DNA of 64,000 nt from Asaia bogorensis (GTDB taxonomy: Bacteria; Pseudomonadota; Alphaproteobacteria; Reyranellales; Reyranellaceae). Numbering within the stretch: position 1 is the first letter of the stretch; each line of letters starts with the position of its first letter. The DNA is taken from assembly GCA_945889625.1 (NCBI GenBank), contig CAMDCE010000022.1, positions 1-64,000 on the forward strand. Reading direction: 5' to 3'. Positions 3,403-41,546 of this stretch are shown here, piece by piece. Below the pieces are notes generated by a model that was not told where the DNA came from, made no database searches, and saw nothing but the letters and a program-made list of their open reading frames with translations. The position numbers were made by a program, and so were the translations under genes.

Positions 3403-4448
3403 TTACGCCGCAGCCGCGCCCAACGGAAACTTCATGCCGCCGTCGTGGAGATGGCACGAGGCAAGGTGGCCGGGCGTCACCTCGCGCAGCGCCGGCACCT
3501 CGGTGCGGCAGCGCGGCATGGCGTAGGGGCAGCGGGCGTGGAAGTGGCAGCCCGACGGCGGGTTGATCGGACTCGGCACGTCGCCCGTCAGGATCACTCG
3601 TTTGCGGCCGCGCGAGCTCGATTTCGGGATCGGCACGGCCGACAGAAGCGCCTCGGTGTAGGGATGTAGCGGCATTTCGAACAATGTGGTCTTGTCCGTC
3701 ATCTCGACGATGCGGCCGAGATACATCACCGCGACGCGATGGCTGATGTGCTCGACCACGGCGAGGTCGTGGGCGACGAACAGGTAGGAGAGCTTGAACT
3801 CGTCCTGCAGATCCATCAGCAGGTTGATGATCTGTGCCTGGATCGACACATCGAGCGCCGACACCGGCTCGTCGCCCACGATCAGCTCGGGATTGAGCGC
3901 CAGGGCGCGGGCGATGCCGATGCGCTGGCGCTGGCCGCCGGAGAATTCGTGCGGATAGGACGCCATCGCCTCGGGCCTGAGGCCGACGCGATCGAACAGG
4001 GCGGCCGCCCGCTCGCGGCGCTCCGTTGGCGTTCCGACGTCGTGGATGATCATCGGCTCGCCCACGATCTCGCCCGCCGTCATGCGCGGGTTCAGCGAGG
4101 CGTAGGGGTCCTGGTAGATCATCTGCATGCGCCGCCGGTAGGGCAGCAGCTCGGCGCGATCGAGATGGGTGATGTCGTGGCCGCCGATCCTGATCGTGCC
4201 GTCGGTCGGCTCGAGCAGCCGCAGCAGCGTGCGGCCGACCGTCGACTTGCCGCAGCCCGATTCGCCCACCAGGCCCAAAGTCTCGCCGCGGCCGATCGAG
4301 AACGACACGCCATCCACGGCATAGACCTGACCCGACACGCGCGAGAAGAGGCCCTTGTGGATCGGGAAATGCTTCTTGAGGTCCCTTACCTCCAGAAGGG
4401 GGGCCTCGAGTAGCGGCCCGTTCGGCTTCTCGGGCGACACAGCCGCGC

Positions 4449-4452
<4 letters not shown>
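3403..4452 (-). CDS. oligopeptide-type ABC transporter ATP-binding protein (DppF/OppF family)
   Basis: A 349-residue ATPase of the OppF/DppF type. Walker [10 protein letters not shown] is near residue 65, the signature FSGGQRQR near 165, and Walker [13 protein letters not shown] near 185. The C-terminal oligopeptide_HPY extension has the Cys motif [15 protein letters not shown]. The ATG at 4452 overlaps the stop of the upstream ATPase gene (ATGA at 4449-4452), so the two are coupled. The frame stays open further upstream, but that stretch lies inside the neighbouring ATPase gene. It would power the importer formed by the permeases at 1472-3324 and the binding protein at 5613. Confidence 0.93.
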
Positions 4453-5507
<1,055 letters not shown>

Positions 5508-5612: not shown

Positions 5613-7304
5613 ATGAGTGATCAAGGATCGAAGCCTTCGGGCGTCAAGCGGCGTGACTTCGTCAAGGGTGCCGGTGCCCTGGCAGGTGCGGGGGCGTTCG
5701 GGCTGCCCTTCGCCGCCTGGGGACAGGGCGTCCCCATGCAGTACGACGGTTCGAAATTTCAGCTAGCGGCACCGGAGCCCAACCCCAAGAAGGGCGGCGT
5801 GCTGAAATACGGCATCACCATGCGGCCGCCGCATTTCGACTTCCATCAGTCGGGCACGATCAACAGCCTGGGCAGCCAGGGCTGCATGTTCGACAACCTG
5901 GTCCGCCGCGACCCGCGCGACAGCGGCAAGACGATCATTCCCGATCTCGCCCATAGCTGGGATATCTCCAAGGACGGCAAGACCTACACCTTCATGCTGC
6001 GCAAGGAGGTGCAGTTCCATGACGGCGCCGAGCTGACGTCGGAGGATGTGAAGGCGACCTTCGACCGTATCTCCAAGCCGCCGACCGGCATCAGCATGCC
6101 GCGCAGTACGCTGTTCGCGGCGGTCGACCAGATCACGGCACCCGACAAGTACACCGTGCAGTTCAAGCTCGCCGCGGCGCGGCCGCCCGACTTCATCATG
6201 GGCGCGATCGCCAGCGGCTGGAACGGCATCGTGCGCAAGAAGACGCTGGACGACAACCAGCAGAATCTGCGCCGCGTCGTCGACATTCCCGGCACCGGCC
6301 CGTTCAAGAGCAAGCGCCGGGTCGAGAACGAAGTGTGGGCGATGGAGCGGCACCCCAACTACTGGAACAAGGGCCTGCCCTACCTCGACGGCATCGAGTT
6401 CTATCACGCCCTGCCGTTCTCGCCCGAGCTCGGCTCCAGCCTGCTGTCGGGCCGTGTCGACTACGCCCGCCTGCTCGATCCGGGCTCGCTGCGCCGGGTC
6501 AAGGCGACCGCCGGCATGTCGGGCACCGACTTCTACCAGTCGGTCATCCAGGCGACCTGGATGAACAATAAGAAGAAGCCGTTCGACGATCCGCGGGTGC
6601 GCCGCGCCTTCCATCTGGTGCTCGACAAGCCGGTGCTGGTCGACGTCGTCAAGGACATCGCGCCGATGATGGTCGGCGGCTTCATCTATCCGTTCTCCGA
6701 CTTCGCCACGCCCAAGGCCGAGCTTTCCAAGCGGCTGGGCTACCAGGCCGACACGACCGCCTCGGTCAAGGAGGCCAAGGCGCTGATGAAGGCGGCCGGC
6801 TATGAAAAGGGCATCACCGGGCTCGACTACCTGGTGCGCGAGGTGGCGAGCTTCAAGCTGTGGTCGCAGGCTATCCAGGCGATGCTGCAGCAGACGCTGA
6901 ACGTGCAGTCGGTCATCCGCCCCGCCGTGGAGTCGGTGTGGTTTGACGACGTCAAGACCGGCAAGTTCGACCTCGCCGTCGGCGCCATCGTCTCGACGCT
7001 GCTCGACCCCAGCGACTACTTCAACGCCTGGTACAAGAAGGACGGGCCGCAGAACTACTCGAACTGGGAAAACTCGAAGTTCGCCGCCCTGCTGCCGCAG
7101 ATCGACAGCGAGGTCGATCCGAAGAAGCGCCTGGCGCTGATCGGCCAGGCCGAGGCCATCATGGAGGAGGATCCTCCGCTGCTGCCGATGTCGTGGGAGA
7201 AGATCAACGACGGCTGGTACAACTACGTGAAGGGCCACCGGGCGCAGGACTACTTCGGCATCTACGACGTCGTGCGCTTCGACACCTTCTGGCTCGACAA
7301 GTAG
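5613..7304 (+). CDS. ABC transporter substrate-binding protein, family 5, with Tat-type signal
   Basis: A 563-residue periplasmic binding protein for peptide- or opine-like solutes (SBP_bac_5 family). The N-terminus [19 protein letters not shown] is a typical twin-arginine signal, with probable cleavage after AAWGQG. Family features include the [18 protein letters not shown] segment around residue 125 and [16 protein letters not shown] in the middle. GGGAGGAA lies directly before ATG 5613. It is the only binding protein near the permeases and ATPases at 1.5-5.5 kb, so these form one importer although the genes are on different strands. Substrate not predictable from sequence. Confidence 0.93.
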
Positions 7305-7336
7305 CGCCTCCCGATCGGACTTCATCTCTTCAGGCT

Positions 7337-7360
7337 CCTCTCCCCCGACAGGGGGAGAGG
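7337..7360. repeat. perfect 10-bp stem hairpin after the binding-protein gene
   Basis: CCTCTCCCCC, a GACA loop, then GGGGGAGAGG, 33 bases after the stop codon at 7304. There is no U-run, so it is not a canonical intrinsic terminator. C/G-rich hairpins of this kind are frequent interspersed elements and may stabilise the mRNA end. Confidence 0.6.
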
Positions 7361-7558
7361 TTGGGCGAGGGGATGCGCACGATCGTCGATGCCCCGCGCT
7401 TGGCTTGGTCGCCCATGCGATAGCGGCCCGCAGTCTCGCTCCAGCAATCGCCAGCAGAGTCATGCAGACCGCGCATCCTGGCGACGGCTGCCCTTGGCGC
7501 GTGGATGGTCTATTGTGAAGCCACAGCCGCCGCAGTCTAGAAAAGCCCGGGCGATCCA

Positions 7559-8299
7559 ATGCTATTTTTTGCCAGACCAGATCCGGCGAGGAAGCGCTTC
7601 CGAAGGGAAGGCTTCCACAGAGTGGAAAATGCGCTGCTCCCGGAAGGCAAGGACTACCTCGTTGAGCGGAGCCATGCCGAGGTCGCCAAAGTGAGTTACG
7701 AGCCGCGCGGTTGGGGGGAGATTTACGCGGCCCCCAGTGCAAGGTTGCTGGAAGAGCAGGTCTTTACCGACGAGTTCGAAGAGGCGCTGATCGGCATCTG
7801 TGGCCGGAGCACAAAGCAGCTCGGCAACATCGACTGCCCCCAGCATGCCTTCTGCCGGCAGGTGGAGGGCGATTGGGGTTACGACACACATATCGATGGT
7901 GCCGCCGCCGACAGGGAAGAGCCTCCCGGTCAATACGAGGTGCTGATCGCCCTCCTGCTGAGCCCGGTCCGCAGCGAGGCCGATGGGGCTTTCGTATTCT
8001 GGCCGGGCAGCCACCTCGAAGTGTTCGCGAACCTGCGCTCCAAGCCACGCCAATTTCTGAGAACCGCGATCCACGACTGTGTTCCGGAGCTGGCTGCCAA
8101 GGGCGCTCCTGCCCTGAAGTCCGGGCCGGCGGCTTTGACGGGAGACGTTGGAACAGCGCTCATTTGCCATCGACTGCTCGTCCACGGCACTGCGCCACGG
8201 ACACGGCCGGGCATCAGGCACATGGCCTTCTTCAGGCCAGCCTATGCGCCGTACGAGAAAGATGCCCTGGTCAAGTCAACCACCTTTGCCAAGCTGTAG
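7559..8299 (+). CDS. phytanoyl-CoA dioxygenase (PhyH)-like Fe(II)/2-oxoglutarate oxygenase
   Basis: A 246-residue protein with the outline of the PhyH superfamily. The HxD iron-binding pair is in THIDG near residue 112, followed by a cupin-like core with FVFWPGSHLEVF (about 143-154). The distal His is in LLVHGTAPRTRP near residue 209, with a conserved Arg for 2-oxoglutarate close behind. Such enzymes hydroxylate lipids, sugars or small metabolites. The neighbours are glycosyltransferases, so tailoring of a glycan or lipid is plausible but unproven. ATG 7559 opens the frame; no strong ribosome site is visible and a later start is possible. Confidence 0.75.
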   Translation: MLFFARPDPARKRFRREGFHRVENALLPEGKDYLVERSHAEVAKVSYEPRGWGEIYAAPSARLLEEQVFTDEFEEALIGICGRSTKQLGNIDCPQHAFCRQVEGDWGYDTHIDGAAADREEPPGQYEVLIALLLSPVRSEADGAFVFWPGSHLEVFANLRSKPRQFLRTAIHDCVPELAAKGAPALKSGPAALTGDVGTALICHRLLVHGTAPRTRPGIRHMAFFRPAYAPYEKDALVKSTTFAKL

Positions 8300-8464
8300 A
8301 GCCCAGGTCGTCCGACGTCGGCGACCGTCTGCAATTCACCGTCTCGTTCAGCACCTCGACGCCGGTCGCGGCCAGCCGCTGCTCGATCTCCGGCAGCTTC
8401 GGCGCTCGGTTGATCTCGCCATTCAGTCGTCGGGTGAGTTCGGCCACGTGATAGCTTGCGTTCG

Positions 8465-9568
8465 ATGAACTTCCTCTTCTTCGCCGGCGGAGCCTCGGTC
8501 AATGGCATGGAGATCGTGCTCCATTCCCTGATGGCGGGACTGAACGAACGCGGCCATCGGGCCGCGGCGATCGTCAGTGGTTGGAACAACGGCGACTATC
8601 CCAGGATGCTCCGCGACTCGGCTATCGAGCATCGCGAGATCGAGCTGGGGCGGATTCATTTGCTGCGGCCGAACTGGACCCGCGGCACCTATTACAGCCT
8701 GCCCAAGGCCATCGACGACATTCGCGCGTTCGTTGGCGAGGTCCAGCCCGACTGGATGATCTTTTCCGAACCCCAGTCGCTGCTGCTCTGCTCCTACATC
8801 CTGCCGTCGGTGCAGAAGGCGCTCTATCTGCACAGCAGGCCGGAACGTTTTCTCACCCATGTCCTTGGCGGCCTGATTCGCCGGCGGATCGGGCGGCTGA
8901 TCTGCGTCTCCGACTTTGTCGCCCAATGCGCCAGGAAGACGCCCTTGAGGCGTGCCGAGCTGGCGGTGGTTCATAACGGGATCTCCTCGCCGCGCGCTGA
9001 TTGGCCGAGCTCCGTGCAACTGCCGGTCCGGCTGGGAATCGTGGGCGGCCTCGGTCATCAGAAGCAGCATCTGACGTTGATGCAGGCCGTCGCGCGGCTG
9101 AAAGGGCGCCTGCCCGCAGGCTCGTTTCGCCTTGTCATCGTCGGCAACAGGCAGGGCAGTTATGTCGACAAGGTCGAAGCAAGGATTGGCGACCTCGGCA
9201 TCCAGGACGTCGTGAGCTGGACGGGTTTCATCAAGGACAGGGACGAGATCTACGGCGGCCTCGACATCCTGGTCGCTCCCGCCATCAACGAGGGCTTCGG
9301 CCTGACGGTTGCCGAGGCGGGCGCCTATGGCCGGCCGTCAGTGGCGGCTCGTTCGGGAGCATTTCCGGAAGTTGTCCAGGAAGGCCGCACCGGCCTGTTG
9401 TTCAAGCCCGGTGACGCAGGCGAACTCGCGCAGGTGCTGGAGCGGCTGATTCTCGATGGCGAGCTGCGTCGAGGGATGGGACAGGCGGCGCGGTCGTTTG
9501 TTCGCCCGACCTTCACCGTCGATCGGATGACGGAGCGCTTTATCGGCGCTCTCGGCGGCGTCGCCTAA
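8465..9568 (+). CDS. glycosyltransferase family 4 protein
   Basis: A 367-residue GT-B retaining glycosyltransferase. The N-terminal Rossmann half starts MNFLFFAGGASVNGME, a glycine-rich acceptor loop; the C-terminal GT1/GT4 domain contains GIVGGLGHQKQHLTLMQAV near residue 190 and the nucleotide-sugar motif PAINEGFGLTVAEAGAYG near 270-290, with the EX7E pair of this family. It probably transfers a sugar in the cytoplasm to a lipid- or protein-linked glycan. ATG 8465 starts just before the first beta strand; a TTG three codons earlier is the alternative. Sugar and acceptor unknown. Confidence 0.88.
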   Translation: MNFLFFAGGASVNGMEIVLHSLMAGLNERGHRAAAIVSGWNNGDYPRMLRDSAIEHREIELGRIHLLRPNWTRGTYYSLPKAIDDIRAFVGEVQPDWMIFSEPQSLLLCSYILPSVQKALYLHSRPERFLTHVLGGLIRRRIGRLICVSDFVAQCARKTPLRRAELAVVHNGISSPRADWPSSVQLPVRLGIVGGLGHQKQHLTLMQAVARLKGRLPAGSFRLVIVGNRQGSYVDKVEARIGDLGIQDVVSWTGFIKDRDEIYGGLDILVAPAINEGFGLTVAEAGAYGRPSVAARSGAFPEVVQEGRTGLLFKPGDAGELAQVLERLILDGELRRGMGQAARSFVRPTFTVDRMTERFIGALGGVA

Positions 9569-9786
9569 ATGCCGGCGACTGACTGCGCGCGCGCGCGGCC
9601 TTGACGGGGCGCCTGCTCGTCGCGCGATTCGCGGGCCCGCGAGTCATGCTTGGCGACATCGTTGACCGGCAGCTCGTCGATGGTGACATTCCGCGCCGTC
9701 GCCCAGCTCTGCAGCGCACTGGCGGCAAACGACGTGATGCCCAACGCGGCAGCGATCATGAACGCCGCAAGAACAAGATGACGCAT
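9565..9786 (-). CDS. small protein with N-terminal signal or membrane segment, function unknown
   Basis: A 73-residue hypothetical protein. The start MRHLVLAAFMIAAALGITSF is a clear hydrophobic signal peptide or single membrane helix. The remainder is hydrophilic, rich in Arg, Asp and Ala, and looks disordered. GGGAAGGTG lies just upstream of the ATG. It converges on the GT4 gene and overlaps its 3' end by four bases. I recognise no family. Confidence 0.55.
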   Translation of the reverse strand: MRHLVLAAFMIAAALGITSFAASALQSWATARNVTIDELPVNDVAKHDSRARESRDEQAPRQGRARAQSVAGI

Positions 9787-10182
9787 CCCACACCTTCCCT
9801 ATGGACCTCGACCCTGTGCTGTACCCCAGCGGGTCGTCGTTCCTTTAGACACCGGGCTTCCCACGGCCCGGCACAATCCCCGGACGGCTATATGGCACAT
9901 CGGTTATCGCACCGCCAGTGTAGAGTGTATAAATTCATGAATGCAAATATCTGATTCTTGTAACACTGGTAATAGGCCGCCTCTGACGTGGTATGACTGC
10001 AATATGTTTAGGGATAGAAAGCTTTGGCTCTTCCTTCCTAAGTACGTGTGATTCAAGGCCAAATGGTCCGAGGCGGGAGGGTGACAGTCGGTCCCGTTGG
10101 GCGAGCAAGGGCCGGGACTAAAAAATGACGCCATCGTCATATTGCACGGGCGGTGCGACATTTCGGCGCCGAATTCTCACGA
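9787..10182. other. long A/T-richer non-coding stretch
   Basis: About 400 bp without a supported gene, visibly richer in A and T than the surroundings. It holds a palindrome ATTCATGAAT (9933-9942), a pair of inverted 7-mers CCAGTGT/ACACTGG (9914-9920 and 9963-9969, approximate) and a perfect 12-bp palindrome TTCGGCGCCGAA (10162-10173) just after the 3' end of the large fusion gene. No promoter or RNA gene could be assigned with confidence. Confidence 0.5.
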
Positions 10183-13100
10183 TTAGGGCCGCACCGCCTT
10201 GGCAAAGCTGTCGACCGACCAGCCGCCCAGCACCTCAATGCGCGGCAGGCGGAGCGGGTCGTGGGTCAACTCGGCCAAGCCCGGCTCCATCGTCAGGCCG
10301 AGTTTGAAGCCGCACTGTGCGGCAACGCGGACGAAGCGATCGTCGGCTTCGCCAAAGGGGGCGGCGATTGACCGGCATTCGGTGCCCAACGCACGCTCGA
10401 GCACGGCGCGCGAACGGGCCGCCTCGAGAACGACGTCGCGACTCGAGAGCTCCGCCAGGTGACTGTGGCTCGCCATGTGGCTGCCGAAGCACACGCCGGC
10501 TGAGCCAAGCGACTGGATCTCCGGCCAGTCCATCAGCGGCGCCGGCGGGCCGTACTCGACGTCCCAGTCGGCGGTGCCGCCCACCCGATCGGTAACCACG
10601 AACACTTCGGGGCAAAAATCGTGGGCGCGCAGAATCGGCCAGGCGATCCGGTGAAAATCGCCATAGGCATCGTCGAAGCTGATCATGACCGGACGACCCG
10701 CGAAGGGCCGCCCGCTCGCGAGGTGAAGGGCTACTTCGGCCGAGGTCACGGCGTGATAGCCGTGCCGGCGCAGCCAGCGCATCTGCTCGCCGAACGCCGC
10801 GGGTGTCACGCGGTAGCGCGCGAGGCCGGGCGGCCCCTCCTCGGCAATACGGTGATAGGCGAGGATCGCCAGCCGGTCGGTGCTCTCGCGGACCCGCACC
10901 TCGGCGCGCAGGGCTTCCGCGCCTCCCCATACGATGGTGCGGGAATGGTCGGGATGAGGCAGCGGGCCGAGCTCAACGCTGTCGAGACGCGGCACGGATG
11001 GCGTCTCGCCTACCCTCAGACGCCGGAAAAGATCGACGCGATAGAGTTCGGTCTCGAGCGAGCGCTCGAGCGCCAGTCCCGGCGTGGCGCCGAATGTTTC
11101 GGCGATGAACTTGGCGCCGAACGCACCGTGCCAATCGACCCCGGTCTTGGTTGGATCGTCCTGCAAGACCTTGAGGTGGGCGGCGAGCAGATGGCCGCCC
11201 GGCGCCAGGGCGGCAACAAGCCTTGCCGCGACCCGAGCAAGCTCGGCGCGGGGGGCGAGGTAGAGGTAATAGAGCACTTCGGAGCAAACCAGCAGGTCGA
11301 GGTCACGCGGCAGCTCATCGTCGAAAAAGTCGAGGCGACGATAGTCGACGTTGCCGAAGGAGCGGCAGCGTTCGCGGGCGCGTTCCAGCGCCGTTTCCGA
11401 AATGTCGGCCGCCGTGAGATGGCTGACGTGGGGCGCCAGCAAGGCGGTGAACCTGCCTTCCGAGCAGGCGACTTCCAACGCCCGGCCGATCGGGCGTTGC
11501 GGCAGAAGTTCCAGCGTTCGCCGGTATTTGAGCTGCTCGTAGTCCGATCCGTAGGCCCATGGATCCTGCTTCCGATACGTTGCCTCCCAGTAGTCTCGAC
11601 GGTTGGTTCGCGAAAGCACGGGCTGGTCGTTGGGTGCCGCGGCGGCCTCGGCAGGCAGCTCTGCCGCCGCTGCCTGCGCGCGACCTTCGGCAATCAGAGC
11701 CGCCAAGGCGCGTTCGTTGGGGCCCGCGGTGCGCGGACCGGCGATCGCAAGGGCGGCCGCCGTCAACACTCTCCGGGCAAGCAGTCGCGGGCGAAAGACC
11801 GACTTCGGTCCGCTCCGCGGCCGTGCGGACGTAAGGTCCGCCGGAAGCCTTGCCAATTCGACGATGGCGTACAGCCAGAACAACGGCCGCCGCAACAGCC
11901 CGCTCGCCTTGAGAAAAACCGAAGGACTCATCGCCTCGATGGCAATCGACGTGAGCTCGCGCACCGAAAGCGTGCCGAAAAGCGAAGTCTCGATCCGCCC
12001 GCGATACTGCCCATCGACGCGGAACTCCATGTTCAGCGTGTCGACTGCACCCGGCACCTCGATGGGCCGCAGATGGCCGACGTCCTGGCGAACGAACAGC
12101 GTCCGGCCGGCGGCAAGTCGTTCCTTCGGCGGCACCGACCTGAACACGTCCGGCTCGAGCGCGAATTCGAGCGCTTGGGCAAAGCCCGGTCGGCTTGCGG
12201 CGCGCTCGACCTGCCCCAATAGCCGACGGAGCGCGGCAATGAATGCAGGATCGTTGGCGAAGCGGTCGCCGGGCAGCAGCCGGGCTCCGCGCAGGAGACC
12301 GTCGAGAATATTGAGGTGACACGTCTCGAAATGATTGTCCCAGCGATTGGGCAACGGCTTGACCAGGCCTTCACCGTCGCCGCCCTCGCCGATTTCGAAG
12401 GCTGCCGCCCACAGGGCGAAGTAGGCGATCACCATCTCCTTGGTGCTGCCCGCGTTGGCGTCGGCGCCGGCAGCGTGGCGCGGCGCCGGCCGCGGTACGC
12501 GAGGATCGGGACCGAAGCTGCGTTCGACCACGACCTCGATGTCGGCCAGCCGTTTGCGGACGTCGCCCGACAGCGAATTGCGGCGTGCCCGGTAGAAGGC
12601 GACGGCCTCTGGAACCGGATGGAAGGCAACGCCGCTGCGGGCGAGGCGCTGCCAGAAATCCCAATCCTCGTTGGTGCGGAGCGAGCTATCGAAGCCGCCC
12701 AACTCGACCGCCAGGGTCCGTTGCAGCACAACCGTGTGGATGAGGAGCGGGCATTCGCGCGCCAACGTCTCGAAGGGCGCCTGCGCGACCTTGGTGTTGA
12801 GCGTGGCCGGTCCCAGTCGACCGTCCACAGTGACGTGACGGAAGGAGCAATAGACGGCGTCGGAGCCACGCCGCGCCTCGGCCGCGCCGACCATCTTCTC
12901 GATGAAGGCCGGCTCGAGCCAGTCGTCGGCATCGAGGAACGACAGCCAGCGGCCGGTGGCTTCGGCGATACCGCGGTTGCGCGCCGCCGCGGCACCTTCC
13001 GCAGTCCGGCCGTCGCTTAGGAGGCGGAAGCGCTTGTCGCGCGCGGTGTAGGCTTCGGCGAGCTGCTTCGTTGCATCGGTCGAGCCGTCATCGACGATGA

Positions 13101-35989: not shown

Positions 35990-36907
35990 TCATGCGCTGC
36001 GCAGCCTGGGGTCGAGCGCGGCGTTCATCAGATCGGCCAGCATGGTTAGGGCGACGTAGATGACCGCCAGCACCAGCACGACGGCCTGGACCACCGGGAA
36101 GTCGTTCTTGGCGATGCTCTCCCAGGCGAGGAAGCCGACGCCGTGCAGGGCAAAGACCTGCTCGATCACGATCGAGCCGCCGAGCATGAAGCCGAGCTGG
36201 ACGGCGGCGATGGCCACCACCGGGATGGCGGCGTTGCGCAGCGCGTGCTTCAGCAGGATCGAGGCGCGCGACAGGCCCTTGGCGCGGGCCGTGCGGATAT
36301 AGTCGCTGCCCATCGCCTGGATCATGCCGGCGCGGGTCAATCTCGTGAGGGCCGGGATCGCCGAGAACGCCAGCACCACGCCGGGCATGACGTAATTCTC
36401 CCACGAGCCGGTGCCCGAGATCGGCAGCCAGCCGAGATGCAGGCCGAAGGTGATCATCAGCACCAGCCCCAGCCAGAACGAGGGCATGGCCTGGCCGAGC
36501 AGGGCGACCATCTGGACGGCGCGGTCGAGGCCGGTGTTCTCGCGCACCGCCGCCAGGATGCCGAGCGGCAAAGAAACCACCAGCGCGATCACCAGACCGG
36601 TCAGGCCGAGCGTCAGGGTCACGGGCATGCGCTCGCCGATCAGCGAGGCCACGCGGGCCTTGAAGAAATAGCTGTCGCCCAGATCGCCGGTGACGGCGCG
36701 GCCGACCCAATCGAAGAACTGCGTGATCACCGGCCGGTCGAGGCCGTAGGCCTTGCGTATCGCCTCGATGTCGGCCGCCGTTGCGTTGGGGCCGGCGATC
36801 GACGTGGCGAGGTCGCCCGACAGTCGCGTCAGCACGAAGGCGAGCACCATCACCGTCGCCGCGACCAGCAGCGCCACGATCAGGCGGCGGAGGAGAAATT
36901 GAAACAT
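35990..36907 (-). CDS. peptide-type ABC transporter permease (DppB/OppB family)
   Basis: A 305-residue permease, first gene of the operon. It starts MFQFLLRRLIVALLVAATVM, the usual DppB beginning, and carries the EAA loop SDYIRTARAKGLSRASIL near residue 200. The in-frame extension up to 37180 crosses intergenic sequence and is not supported. It diverges from the metallopeptidase gene at 37044. Probable partner binding protein: 30227-31762. Confidence 0.93.
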   Translation of the reverse strand: MFQFLLRRLIVALLVAATVMVLAFVLTRLSGDLATSIAGPNATAADIEAIRKAYGLDRPVITQFFDWVGRAVTGDLGDSYFFKARVASLIGERMPVTLTLGLTGLVIALVVSLPLGILAAVRENTGLDRAVQMVALLGQAMPSFWLGLVLMITFGLHLGWLPISGTGSWENYVMPGVVLAFSAIPALTRLTRAGMIQAMGSDYIRTARAKGLSRASILLKHALRNAAIPVVAIAAVQLGFMLGGSIVIEQVFALHGVGFLAWESIAKNDFPVVQAVVLVLAVIYVALTMLADLMNAALDPRLRSA

Positions 36908-37029
36908 GCGCGGCTGGAGCTTAGAGCGGTTGGTCCCGGAAGGCGACCATGCGAATCCCGCGCCAAATTTGCCGCGACGGACCAGTGAACAATGGTCACG
37001 CCGGGCGCTTGGAAAGCGCGCACGGCTCC

Positions 37030-37035
37030 TATATG
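37030..37035 (+). promoter_or_regulatory. TATATG -10-like box eight bases before a start codon
   Basis: TATATG, eight bases, then ATG 37044 of the metallopeptidase gene. A GGGGGAG run overlaps the spacer but lies very close to the ATG for a ribosome site, so either leaderless or ordinary initiation is possible. Confidence 0.35.
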
Positions 37036-37043
37036 GGGGAGTA

Positions 37044-37499
37044 ATGCCGGTCTTCAACAATCCTCGGCGCACGCCCTGCTTCGGAATGGCGCCCACATTG
37101 GAAGATCTCGAGGCGATCGCCGCCGAGGCGCTCGCCACGATTCCCGAGGAGTTCCGCAAGCACGTCGGCAACGTGCGCATCCAGGTCGATGACTTTCCGT
37201 CGGACGAAATCGAGAAGGCGATGGAGCTCGATACGCCGTTCGACCTGCTCGGCCTTTACCAGGGCGTGTCGATGATGGAACGCGGCGCCGGCCACGTCGC
37301 CAACGACATCGACCGCATCTTCCTCTATCGCCGGCCGATCCTCGACTATTGGTGCGAATCCGACGAGGACCTGCCGCACATCGTGCGTCACGTGCTGATC
37401 CACGAGATCGGCCATCACTTCGGGCTGAGCGACGACGACATGGAAGCAATCGAGGCCAAGGCCGAGGAAGAATCCCGCCGCGTCCAGCCCGGCGCCTGA
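37044..37499 (+). CDS. zincin-like metallopeptidase family protein
   Basis: A 151-residue protein of the small zincin family (Pfam PF06262 type). The zinc-binding HExxH is in HEIGHHFGLSDDD near residue 119, preceded by HIVRHVLI. The N-terminal part has LEAIAAEALATIPEEF and DDFPSDEIEKAMEL, typical of the family. It is cytoplasmic, with no signal peptide. Substrates of this family are unknown. The ATG at 37044 matches the usual start close to the helix TLEDLEAIA. Confidence 0.9.
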   Translation: MPVFNNPRRTPCFGMAPTLEDLEAIAAEALATIPEEFRKHVGNVRIQVDDFPSDEIEKAMELDTPFDLLGLYQGVSMMERGAGHVANDIDRIFLYRRPILDYWCESDEDLPHIVRHVLIHEIGHHFGLSDDDMEAIEAKAEEESRRVQPGA

Positions 37500-38408: not shown

Positions 38409-38947
38409 GCCGCGCGCTCGCGCAGAAGCCGGCGCTCGGCGACGAAGGCGGCCGCCTCCTTCCACGGCTTGAGGCTCCAGAAGGAGCGGGCCCGACCGGA
38501 TGGCGAGGCGAGCACGAACGCCACGGCGCCTTCCAACGGTTCGACCTGTCGCCCGTAAGCCGGCGCCTTGATGCCAAGTGCCAGCGCGGCGGCGTGCTTG
38601 CTGGTGAAGGCGACGGCGGCCGGCCGATAGCGCCGCAGATTGGCGTGCAGGGACCTGGCATCCATGGCGTCGGCGCTCAGTTCGTGATCGGAGCCGACCT
38701 CGGTCTTGTTGAGATCGGTCAGCCCCAGCCGCCACGCCAGCAGCTCGGGATAACGCCCGGGCGCCAATCGCTCGGGCGTGAAACCGACGGCATGGAGCGT
38801 CGGCCAGAATGCATTGCCGGGATTGGCGTAATAGGCGCGCGCCTTGAACGAGGCCGGGCTGGGCGCGGTGCCGCAGAACACCAGGTCGAGACCGGGCGCC
38901 AGCAGGTCGGGAAGCAGGTGGCTACTGCGGCTTGATGCCCGCGCCAC
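38405..38947 (-). CDS. mug: mismatch-specific uracil-DNA glycosylase (Mug/TDG family)
   Basis: A 180-residue base-excision repair glycosylase removing uracil or thymine from G mismatches. Motif 1 appears as VFCGTAPSPASFKARAYYANPGNAFWPTL (short: GTAPSPASFKA, then NPGNAFW) near residues 24-50, and the C-terminal strand-loop as FVLASPSGRARSFW near 145. The canonical GINPG of E. coli Mug is GTAPS here, as in several alphaproteobacterial relatives. The start is GTG 38947, which overlaps the 3' end of the upstream pseudogene by 26 bases; no better start exists before the motif. Confidence 0.85.
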   Translation of the reverse strand: MARASSRSSHLLPDLLAPGLDLVFCGTAPSPASFKARAYYANPGNAFWPTLHAVGFTPERLAPGRYPELLAWRLGLTDLNKTEVGSDHELSADAMDARSLHANLRRYRPAAVAFTSKHAAALALGIKAPAYGRQVEPLEGAVAFVLASPSGRARSFWSLKPWKEAAAFVAERRLLRERAA

Positions 38948-39271
38948 GGATCACCTCACCCCAGCGCTTGTACACGGCCCTGATGAAGGCGTCGGCTTCG
39001 GTGACCGAGAGGGCAGTCGGCCCAAAGCCGCCGTGCTTCATGCTCTCGATCACGTCGGATTCCTTGAGGGCCCGCTCGGTGGCAGCCCACGACGAGGTCG
39101 GGGAAGCCCGGCTCGACGCGTGTCTGCGTGTCATGTTGTTCTGCGAGCCGCCCGGCGTGAACGGGCAGACGATGCGTACGGCCTTGGTCGGCCACACTCC
39201 TCGCCCACGGCGCAGGCCGGTGCCGCGATCAGCATAGTGCCGAACATGGCGGTGAAGTGGCGTCTCCTCAT
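38922..39271 (-). pseudogene. decayed tripartite tricarboxylate transporter binding protein (TctC/Bug family)
   Basis: The 350-bp remnant starts with a signal peptide in one frame (MRRRHFTAMFGTMLIAAPAC), then a second frame gives WPTKAVRIVCPFTPGGSQNN, the typical start of mature Bug/TctC proteins, and ends with VTEADAFIRAVYKRWGEVIR, the usual C-terminal helix. Intact proteins have about 320 residues; most of the middle is missing and at least one frameshift is needed, so this is a pseudogene. It lies between the glycosylase and amidohydrolase genes. Confidence 0.8.
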
Positions 39272-39367
39272 TTGTCGGTCTCCATTGGGCGAAGCCAAGG
39301 CCTAGCGGGAAAGGATGCATGACCGACGCCGCAAAGAGTAGGCCCGTGTTCGCCCTTCGCCGGTTCG

Positions 39368-40444
39368 CTAGGTGACGCTGGCGATGGCCCGGCCATAGAG
39401 TCTGGCGCCGTTCTTCCAGAGGATCTTCCGCTTTGTGGCAGCGGTGAGGTCGCTGCGCCCGATGAGTGTGTCGATTGCCTTTGGGAATAGGCTGTCACGA
39501 TGAGGGTAGTCGGTCGCAATGACGATGTTGTCATCGCCCAGCGCATCGACGACGCCGGTCAGATATGGTTCGTTCGCCTCGGTCCCGACAAAGCATTGGC
39601 GCAGGAAATACTCGCTCGGTCGCAGCGATAGCGGCACGTCGCCGTCCTCGGGAAATTTCTCCAGCGTGTCGTCAAGGCGCCACAGCCACCATGGCAGCCA
39701 ACCGCATCCTCCTTCCAGAAAGGCGCAGACGAGCCTTGGGTGCCGCTCCAGTACGCCGCCCGCGACAAGGCTGCCGAAGGCCAGCATCAGCTCCATCGGA
39801 TTGCGCGCCGCGTCTGCGATCAGATTGGCGCCGGTGTGTCCCCTGAAGCGTCGTCCGACGTCGTCGCGCAGCGTCCATACGCCGGTGGGGTGGAAGCAAT
39901 ACGGCACGCCGAATGCCTCGACGACCTCCCATAGCGGCTCGAAACAGGCATCGTGGATATGCCGTCCGTTCACTGGGTTGGGATTTCCAACGACGGCGAT
40001 GGCGCCCAAGTCGCCGACCGCCCTTTCGACTTCGCGCACCGCGAGCGCAACGTCGTGGTAGGCGATCTGGGCGGCGAACTTCAGCCGTTCCGGTGCCCGC
40101 GAACAGAAGTCGCGCGACCAGTCGTTGTGCGCGCGCGCTAGGGCGGCAGCGAAATCGGGGTCCACATCGTCGTGCATCTGAACGTGGCGTCCGCGCGTGC
40201 CGAAGAGCACGGCGACGTCGATACCCTCAATGTCCATTGCCGTCAGATGGGACGGCGCGTCGTAGCCGGCCGCTGCCGCGGCGCGAAGGTGCGGATGACG
40301 CGGTGCCGACGGACCCGGCGCCGGTGCTGGGCGGCGCCACTGACACGTGCGGGCCCTGAAACGATCATCGAGATATCGCAGCCATAGATCATCCGGCTCG
40401 AAAGTATGGAGGTCGGCATCGAGCACCCTGAAGCCGGCCTTCAC
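39368..40444 (-). CDS. amidohydrolase-2 family metal-dependent hydrolase/decarboxylase
   Basis: A 358-residue TIM-barrel protein of the ACMS-decarboxylase-like amidohydrolase family. The N-terminal metal motif usually reads DxHxH; here it is DADLHTFEP near residue 10. Other markers: HPTGVW near 200, the beta-strand LVCAFLEGGCGWLPWWLWRLD, and the closing DNIVIATDYPHRDSLFP near 310, holding the late metal/acid Asp. GTG 40444 is chosen because GGGAGAG lies just upstream and the first beta strand (FRVLDADLH) follows. It is 31 bp downstream of the radical SAM gene, so the two are probably co-transcribed. Confidence 0.85.
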   Translation of the reverse strand: MKAGFRVLDADLHTFEPDDLWLRYLDDRFRARTCQWRRPAPAPGPSAPRHPHLRAAAAAGYDAPSHLTAMDIEGIDVAVLFGTRGRHVQMHDDVDPDFAAALARAHNDWSRDFCSRAPERLKFAAQIAYHDVALAVREVERAVGDLGAIAVVGNPNPVNGRHIHDACFEPLWEVVEAFGVPYCFHPTGVWTLRDDVGRRFRGHTGANLIADAARNPMELMLAFGSLVAGGVLERHPRLVCAFLEGGCGWLPWWLWRLDDTLEKFPEDGDVPLSLRPSEYFLRQCFVGTEANEPYLTGVVDALGDDNIVIATDYPHRDSLFPKAIDTLIGRSDLTAATKRKILWKNGARLYGRAIASVT

Positions 40445-40475: not shown

Positions 40476-41546
40476 TTATGCGGTGGTTTCCGGGCTGCAG
40501 TCGGTCGGCCTGCAGGCGGGCCTCTCCGGTGCACAATCAGGCACGGGTTCCTCAGGAGGGCAGGGGCCGGGGTCGGTTTCCGGCCCACAGATCGTTGGCT
40601 TCTCAGGATCACAGGGGCCGGGGTCGGTTTCCGGCCCACAGATCGTTGGCTTCTCAGGATCGCAGGGGCCGGGGTCAGTTTCCGGTCCGCAAGCCAGACT
40701 TTCATTCGCGTGCATCGACCTCGTCGAAGCAGCCCGGCGCGCCGCCAACCAGGGATGCGTGGCCACCAAGGCGTCGCGGAAGTCGTTGAGGCGCAGGCTA
40801 TTGAAGGCCCCTGCAATCCCCCCCGACTTCATGCTTCCGAGGTCAGCGAAGCGGGCGAACACGCAGGGGAAGATTGCGCCGCCCGAACTGACGCAGACCT
40901 TGCGGTCGCCGCAGCGGCCGCAAAGCTCGCGCAGTCTCGGTTGTGCTGGTCGTTCGTCGGCGCCGCGTCCCAGTCCGCGCAGGCGGTCGACGTGGACGTT
41001 GCGTGCACCCATTTCCCGAAGCATGCGCTCGGTTTCGGGAACACCGTCGGAGTTGACGTCCATCTCGATGATGTTCGCGCTCACGGGTAGTCCCGAGTCT
41101 AACGCCCAGCGCAGCCCGGCAGAGGTCTTGGCAAATGAACCGCGGCGCAGCGTCACTTGATCGTGGATTGCGGCGTTCGTTCCATAAACGGAGAACGCCA
41201 GGCTGACGCGCTGGTTCAGGAATACTTTCTTCAACGCCTCGGTGATGTGCGTGCCGTTGGTATAGACGCAGACATATTCGAAGCCGACTGCTCGGGCATG
41301 TTCGATCAGCAGGGGCAGTCCAGGGTAGAGCGTGGGTTCGCCGCCGATGAATTGCACTCGCCTGCAGCCGAGCGCGGCCGCCTCGTCGAGCGCGTTGACC
41401 CAGTCGTCCAGACTCATGCCATCCATGAGCGGCTGCTCGGGCCCGGAATCTGCGTAGCAATGACTGCACCGGAGATTGCAGCGGCCGGTCAGTTCGAGCC
41501 AAAGGAACTCGAGAGACTGGCGATCCTGTACGGCATAGCTGTCCAT
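40476..41546 (-). CDS. radical SAM/SPASM-type protein with C-terminal Cys-Pro-Asp-Glu tandem repeats
   Basis: A 356-residue enzyme. Residues 10-200 are a radical SAM barrel: RCNLRCSHC (Cys23, 27, 30 bind the 4Fe-4S cluster), IGGEPTLYPG (68-77) and YVCVYTNGTHI. Residues about 210-240 have an auxiliary-cluster Cys set (LCGRCGDRKVCVSSGGAIFPC), shared with the SPASM/twitch peptide-modifying enzymes. Residues 285-356 form an unusual tail of three near-identical 17-residue units, CGPETDPGPCDPEKPTI and variants, then a Cys-rich end (CAPERPACRPTDC), ten Cys in all. The tail might bind metal, be a substrate, or mimic a precursor peptide. GGGGAG precedes the ATG. The amidohydrolase gene follows. No separate precursor-peptide gene was recognised. 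Confidence 0.88.
   Translation of the reverse strand: MDSYAVQDRQSLEFLWLELTGRCNLRCSHCYADSGPEQPLMDGMSLDDWVNALDEAAALGCRRVQFIGGEPTLYPGLPLLIEHARAVGFEYVCVYTNGTHITEALKKVFLNQRVSLAFSVYGTNAAIHDQVTLRRGSFAKTSAGLRWALDSGLPVSANIIEMDVNSDGVPETERMLREMGARNVHVDRLRGLGRGADERPAQPRLRELCGRCGDRKVCVSSGGAIFPCVFARFADLGSMKSGGIAGAFNSLRLNDFRDALVATHPWLAARRAASTRSMHANESLACGPETDPGPCDPEKPTICGPETDPGPCDPEKPTICGPETDPGPCPPEEPVPDCAPERPACRPTDCSPETTA
40539..40691. repeat. three tandem 51-bp repeats inside the radical SAM gene
   Basis: Three units of 51 bp, in phase with the reading frame, encode the 17-residue tail repeats. The first two are nearly identical in DNA and the third diverges in its second half. The near identity at the DNA level suggests recent expansion or ongoing slippage or recombination. 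Confidence 0.9.

Follow-up and report, generated by a model that had tools for sequence, protein, structure and literature searches.

A radical SAM enzyme with a Cys-x-Pro tail as a candidate fusion of a peptide-modifying enzyme with its own substrate

The window analysed here is a stretch of 64,000 nucleotides (positions 1 to 64,000 of contig CAMDCE010000022.1, assembly GCA_945889625.1, named Asaia bogorensis and placed by GTDB in the Reyranellaceae). It carries a gene for a radical SAM (rSAM) enzyme whose C-terminal tail has every cysteine in a Cys-x-Pro (CxP) motif, and we propose, with a probability of about two in three, that the product is a peptide-modifying enzyme fused to its own substrate, which it would modify in cis. 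The proposal is built on features that are seen directly: the architecture of the protein, the conservation of CxP among its relatives, the occurrence of two-gene relatives, and the partner genes.

The open reading frame, Cys23, Cys27 and Cys30 (the CxxxCxxC motif) and GGEPT, all described in the first-pass annotation, are present, and the PF04055 score of 79.8 bits, against a cut-off of 29.5, places the enzyme in the radical SAM superfamily. The same annotation called it SPASM-type with an auxiliary Cys cluster. The cluster remains a presumed one: Cys 209, 212, 218 and 228 would suit one auxiliary cluster, and C209, C212 and C228 are invariant in 76 aligned sequences; the SPASM profile PF13186 gives 17.0 bits, under its cut-off of 21.5, and "truncated SPASM" is the better description. 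Several relatives carry a precomputed PF13186 label. The top NCBIfam family is StsB (77.5 bits, cut-off 625), and among the best 25 of 62 NCBIfam families of rSAM maturases (StsB, AlbA, PapB, HxsC, SkfB and others) the enzyme scores far under the cut-offs; its closest sequence match in the PDB is SkfB. The protein contains 18 cysteines, of which nine, not ten as first counted, belong to the tail.

The tail proper is 71 residues long, one less than first described, and all nine of its cysteines (9/9) are followed by x-Pro, which refines the originally proposed repeat unit to CxP as the conserved feature. The in-frame 51-bp DNA copies were found again by Tandem Repeats Finder as an array at 40551-40685 (2.6 copies, 94% match). 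Of the three 17-residue units claimed, the first two are indeed identical in protein sequence, and the 4 base differences between their 51-bp copies are all synonymous, which gives the copies a recent look and the protein sequence a conserved one; the third shares only its first 10 residues with them and diverges afterwards. A degenerate pattern of these 10 residues has three matches in the window and none in 100 shuffles. The coordinates of the features are collected in Table 1.

Table 1. Features of the tailed radical SAM gene and of its proposed partner in the window
Feature	Position	Strand	Basis
Radical SAM enzyme with CxP tail, 356 aa + stop	40476..41546	minus	ORF confirmed
Radical SAM core, residues 18-163	41058..41495	minus	PF04055, 79.8 bits
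Presumed auxiliary cluster, Cys 209, 212, 218, 228 (truncated SPASM)	40863..40922	minus	Cys positions
Tail, residues 286-356, 9 Cys all in Cys-x-Pro, proposed fused precursor peptide	40479..40691	minus	
17-residue unit 1, CGPETDPGPCDPEKPTI	40641..40691	minus	Tandem Repeats Finder and unit comparison
17-residue unit 2, protein as unit 1, 4 synonymous changes	40590..40640	minus	
17-residue unit 3, second half diverged	40539..40589	minus	
PF04909 protein, PtmU3/LynB7-type ligand pattern, proposed cassette partner	39368..40444	minus	92.9 bits

The CxP tail is a trait of the whole enzyme family. The window protein was used as a query against 5.8 billion proteins, 8000 candidates were scored, and 743 relatives were obtained at E <= 1e-3; CxP was counted in 119 of the best 120 of these, the one left out being P0028, which has a CxP tail. 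In the 119 proteins 755 of 804 tail cysteines lie in CxP, whereas shuffled tails (1000 shuffles each) average 144.7 and reach 176 at most; of 1017 core cysteines only 6 are in CxP. At least three tail CxP are present in 110 and at least two in 111 of the 119; the number per tail reaches 16, and the spacing of the cysteines is variable, with 9 as its commonest value. The eight proteins without tail CxP comprise P0031 (a fragment), P0073 (no CxP anywhere), and six with two CxP in an N-terminal extension. Since the first query included the tail, a second search was run with the tail-less protein P0106. The best 120 of its 722 relatives included 55 new ones, 52 of which could be parsed: 42 have at least two tail CxP (329 of 361 tail cysteines), five have at least two at the N-terminus only, and five have neither; unparsed were P0149 and P0172, with CxP at the end, and P0125, a 228-residue piece without CxP. 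Altogether, among 171 parsed relatives the module is absent from P0031, P0073, P0136, P0162 and P0167, and P0143 and P0156 have a single CxP.

Tailed relatives with a named source come from, among others, Reyranella, Dyella, Phenylobacterium, Sphingomicrobium, Candidatus Acidoferrum, Obscuribacterales and many Actinomycetota, with the reservation that most relatives are metagenomic, lack gene context and may be mislabelled by MAG binning. With core-only queries, tailed relatives turned up in one further genome of the family and on plasmids. Among 398 genomes across Pseudomonadota the core query (E 1e-35) found a tailed member in the window's own genome alone, the 13 other matches being all of the tail-less sister type described below; tailed members are thus rare in sequenced Pseudomonadota. 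The first-pass annotation had considered that the tail might be frequent in unrelated proteins; a tail-only protein search, a weak test, gave no such spread and a single match, P0121. P0121 is no clean stand-alone precursor; its first part resembles the end of a relative of the window enzyme.

Three tailed loci have peculiarities of their own. In Streptosporangium (L031, 8695-8955) the CxP tail lies in another frame that overlaps the end of the rSAM core frame, which may reflect a frameshift, an error of sequencing or a gene that is naturally split. The enzyme of a Pseudonocardiales MAG (L029, 7731-8864) has the first two cysteines of CxxxCxxC replaced by Tyr and Arg yet keeps its CxP tail, and is possibly inactive or the product of a sequence error. 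In L012 (8989-10571) the tailed rSAM gene is followed by genes for a 283-aa protein and an AAA_21 ATPase, and as both families recur in L022, L023, L031 and L039, they may form a further partner set.

The module is not confined to the C-terminus: 6 of the 119 scored relatives have CxP at the N-terminus only. In a tree of 143 rSAM cores, a quick one with SH-aLRT support only and with long branches flagged (L036 included), the N-terminal-CxP proteins fall inside the tailed clade, and four of them share a clade of 99% SH-aLRT with P0105, which carries CxP at either end; this suggests that the module shifts between the ends of the enzyme. A long branch with 97% support separates the tailed and two-gene proteins together from the remaining seven radical SAM rows. 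The tail-less sister clade comprises 16 rows (97% support), and L036 stands apart on a long branch without a settled place.

These 16 rows and L036 were treated together as a sister set of 17 loci, and in 15 of them a separate small open reading frame with at least two CxP lies close to the rSAM gene; no such frame was found in L120, and in L035 the rSAM gene starts at the contig edge. Of the two situations envisaged by the first-pass annotation, a tail kept by relatives is seen in most of them, and a separate neighbouring gene, here for a CxP peptide, in the sister loci. In L036 the CxP frame overlaps the rSAM stop codon by four bases, is preceded by a ribosome-binding-site-like AGGAGG, and has 6 of 6 Cys in CxP; in L030 two CxP frames, with 4/4 and 2/2 Cys in CxP, lie about 2 kb downstream of the rSAM gene. 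The other sister peptides have a CxP pair such as CCPSACQPC or CKPTACKPC, mostly with extra non-CxP cysteines, and a twin-arginine-like leader, except for L129 and L130, which are cut by contig ends. The match of a leader pattern to 12 of 12 is not independent, as the pattern was drawn from peptides already picked for CxP. Most sister precursors have 2-3 CxP among 4-15 Cys. In the 17 sister peptides, most of which were picked for having CxP (L123 alone was first found by its leader), 42 of 148 Cys are in CxP, against a shuffled mean of 13.4 and maximum of 24. CxP is thus enriched in them, not dominant, and the likeness to the tails is partial except in L036 and L030.

The genes of the sister loci stand in an order usual for RiPP clusters. 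PqqD is encoded near the rSAM gene in 15 of the 17 sister loci (Pfam score of 54.5 bits in L032), and an HprK-related protein in 14 (in L032, 47.7 bits to TIGR04352, cut-off 200). The L032 cluster (6161-10248) consists of genes for NTP_transf_5, the leader peptide, rSAM, PqqD and the HprK-related protein; its precursor matched nothing in Pfam or NCBIfam at E 0.1. In L127 two tandem sister-type precursor genes (4202-4510 and 4720-5007) stand ahead of one rSAM gene. Neither PqqD (also sought by profile) nor the HprK-related protein was found in any of 51 tailed loci (0/51 each), the fetched flanks of which are unequal and some short, and among which one contig is counted twice, as L005 and L132. 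Read most simply, the recognition protein would have become needless once precursor and enzyme were fused.

The first-pass annotation reported no separate precursor adjacent to the gene, and a search for clustered CxP in all six frames of the window agrees with this: outside the gene it gave only four short segments (24, 51, 131 and 36 residues), 7-15 kb away, which were judged by composition to be chance occurrences. Further CxP segments in tailed loci were likewise set aside as chance, by frame and composition. In the own genome, whose assembly is about 94% complete and in which a precursor unlike the two queries would escape, the tail query gave no convincing second match (next best E 0.04), and the L036 precursor query gave nothing convincing either (best E 0.14).

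A precursor-like module is thus present within the enzyme chain in the tailed proteins and as a separate gene in relatives. The earlier suggestion that the tail is an attached, precursor-like substrate gains from this separate gene of tail-less relatives, from CxP at either end of the enzyme and from PqqD not having been found in tailed loci. We infer the modification of the tail, its occurrence in cis and the order of the steps. The 71-residue tail would be a multi-unit precursor with nine Cys-x-Pro sites, on which the enzyme would act in cis, inside one chain or across a dimer. The PF04909 protein encoded next to it, perhaps a dinuclear metal oxygenase, would be a likely second tailoring enzyme, and in many actinobacterial-type loci an aspartate methyltransferase would take its place. 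With the substrate fused and modified in cis, neither a separate precursor nor a PqqD-type recognition protein would be needed. As to the bond formed, the foremost guess is a thioether at Cys, because QhpD forms Cys-Asp (PMC11002830) and PapB Cys-Asp or Cys-Glu thioethers (PMC9413430), both joining Cys to acidic residues, and because in the 119 scored relatives CxP is followed by Glu 327 times and by Asp 173 times (together 500 of 755).

The likely GTG start of the PF04909 gene, a gene that the first-pass annotation does not mention, lies 31 bases past the rSAM stop. The best match of its product among solved structures, by sequence, is PtmU3, and the third best is a decarboxylase. Residues D11, H13, H185, E244, D312 and H315 reproduce the dinuclear ligand pattern of three His, two Asp and one Glu (by spacing in comparison with LynB7 and by alignment with PtmU3), and D317 is the extra Asp where LynB7 and BarH have one; the same ligand pattern occurs in the PF04909 proteins of L006 and L132. 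LynB7 carries out oxidative decarboxylation of a Cys-derived thiazoline, which is suggestive only as regards the role of the neighbour. The PF04909 protein thus resembles the amidohydrolase-related dinuclear oxygenases (PtmU3, LynB7/BarH, SfbO) in its ligand pattern, and it aligns with PtmU3. PtmU3 is a nonheme diiron monooxygenase, and LynB7 has six metal ligands (PMC10127204). We only lean towards a dinuclear oxygenase, because decarboxylases also match and the features separating mono- from dinuclear PF04909 enzymes are described as unknown in PMC10811679.

Of 75 family genomes, two have the rSAM gene and the same two have the PF04909 gene; the pair stands ahead of an acyl-CoA dehydrogenase gene, and the second genome is that of a Reyranella (L005/L132). 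The acyl-CoA dehydrogenase has a match in 57 of 65 genus genomes (E 1e-180), and no match to the pair was found at the 24 other loci inspected. Dyella subtropica (L006) has the same pair, with 65% and 71% identity, so the two genes probably travel together.

A different partner is found in 21 tailed loci of the actinobacterial type. A gene for a protein-aspartate methyltransferase (PAMT) directly follows the tailed rSAM gene in 14 of 20 plasmid regions (20 of 28 records) and in seven genome loci (L017, L021, L028, L033, L034, L037 and L043); in L112, L115, L116 and L117 the annotation of the linked gene goes no further than "methyltransferase domain-containing protein", and L038, where a methyltransferase is matched only in part, some 400 bases downstream, was left out of the linked set. 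No PAMT gene adjoins the rSAM gene of the window, whose direct neighbours are the PF04909 and acyl-CoA dehydrogenase genes. Asp-Gly or Asp-Ser occurs in the tails of 19 of the 21 linked loci (15 of 16 by scoring, and L104, L113, L117 and L168 as read by eye; L115 does not have it) and of 6 of 24 unlinked ones, and the tails of L114 and L115 have Asp-Thr instead. Fisher's test on 16 linked and 24 unlinked loci gives 2e-5, with rows that are not independent, because the linkage arose only about three times; an independent-pairs sign test of the methyltransferase association is not significant, with too few pairs. Two plasmids of this group have additional genes nearby: in a Streptomyces plasmid (L112, 6923-8416) a second radical SAM gene lies near the tailed rSAM and methyltransferase genes, and in a circular Streptomyces plasmid (L102, 9144-11612) an annotated phage portal protein is encoded near the pair, hinting at phage-plasmid carriage.

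Lee et al. in 2023 described 249 two-gene rSAM-methyltransferase clusters for which no neighbouring precursor was found (PMC10787088), and the accessible portion of their text makes no mention of a tail on these rSAM proteins. The 21 tailed loci show the same gene pair, which does not imply identity with those clusters, and the window gene differs from them in having no PAMT neighbour. The CxP tail could be the missing precursor of the orphan rSAM-PAMT pairs, and this reading offers a direct test for the 249 clusters (PMC10787088).

Other explanations of the tail have to be weighed against a fused substrate. It is unlikely that the tail serves in metal or cluster binding, or in thiol redox chemistry, while the enzyme acts on a different substrate. 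The regular spacing of its nine Cys, the acidic and Pro-rich character of the chain, the few relatives that keep the core without the CxP module, and the fact that only four further Cys suit an auxiliary cluster would agree with such an arm, but the number of CxP (up to 16) and their spacing vary between tails, and the module also occurs N-terminally or as a gene of its own, in most cases together with a leader and PqqD, which suits a substrate better. A role as a scaffold or docking arm, with the enzyme and the PF04909 protein acting on a small molecule, is quite improbable in spite of the small-molecule substrates of PF04909 enzymes such as PtmU3 (PMC10127204, PMC10811679) and of the rSAM/PF04909 pair being found in three genomes, as the same type of tail is found where PF04909 is absent, and beside a methyltransferase family of known peptide substrates (PMC10787088).

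Repeat slippage producing a neutral extension might account for the recent DNA copies, with units 1 and 2 differing at four bases, but a neutral repeat is disfavoured, to the point of being scarcely credible, by the synonymous nature of all four differences and by the persistence of CxP over highly diverged tails. Finally, the enzyme might act in trans on a distant precursor, which the tail would only mimic or regulate. The sister enzymes probably use separate peptides, judging by gene order; against this, the two queries of the own genome mentioned above returned nothing convincing beyond the tail, and action in trans is very improbable.

An enzyme modifying its own fused substrate is reminiscent of borosins of types I-III (OphMA), in which enzyme and precursor form one self-modifying polypeptide (PMC11285071); the borosin enzyme is a backbone N-methyltransferase, whereas the present one is a radical SAM protein with a Cys-x-Pro tail and a module that can also be N-terminal. 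With StsB, AlbA, SkfB, QhpD and PapB it shares the radical SAM core, auxiliary Cys and a Cys-rich (here proposed) substrate. Those systems differ in using a separate precursor, and the window enzyme scores far under the listed family cut-offs. To our knowledge, there are no Cys-x-Pro repeats in any of these five systems. No report of fusion between a radical SAM enzyme and its substrate was found in the open-access literature (titles and starts of abstracts, with subscription papers mostly outside), and an rSAM enzyme carrying the peptide it modifies would add a new arrangement to those of its class.

RiPP mining mostly seeks a separate small precursor gene and would miss a large family should the tail of the enzyme itself be the precursor. 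We lean, with some reserve, towards the wider view that CxP-tailed rSAM proteins would constitute a widespread self-modifying RiPP class, with a module that can change ends or have its own gene and with a swappable second enzyme (PF04909 dinuclear oxygenase or PAMT) to complete the product, which would explain the orphan rSAM-PAMT pairs. If so, these would be single-protein systems that could be expressed alone.

Beyond the cassette, a transport permease gene (PF00528) and a gene for a zincin-like metallopeptidase (36906-37499, plus strand, PF06262, 121 bits) lie at 36.0-37.5 kb, 3-4 kb from the cassette (about 3 kb for the latter); superoxide dismutase and uracil-DNA glycosylase genes stand in between, and nothing ties the PF06262 and PF00528 genes to the cassette. 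At 38922-39320 (minus strand), where Pfam gave no match, there is an apparent remnant of a solute-binding gene, 54 residues of which match a 338-aa copy in Reyranella (L132, 3539-4552).
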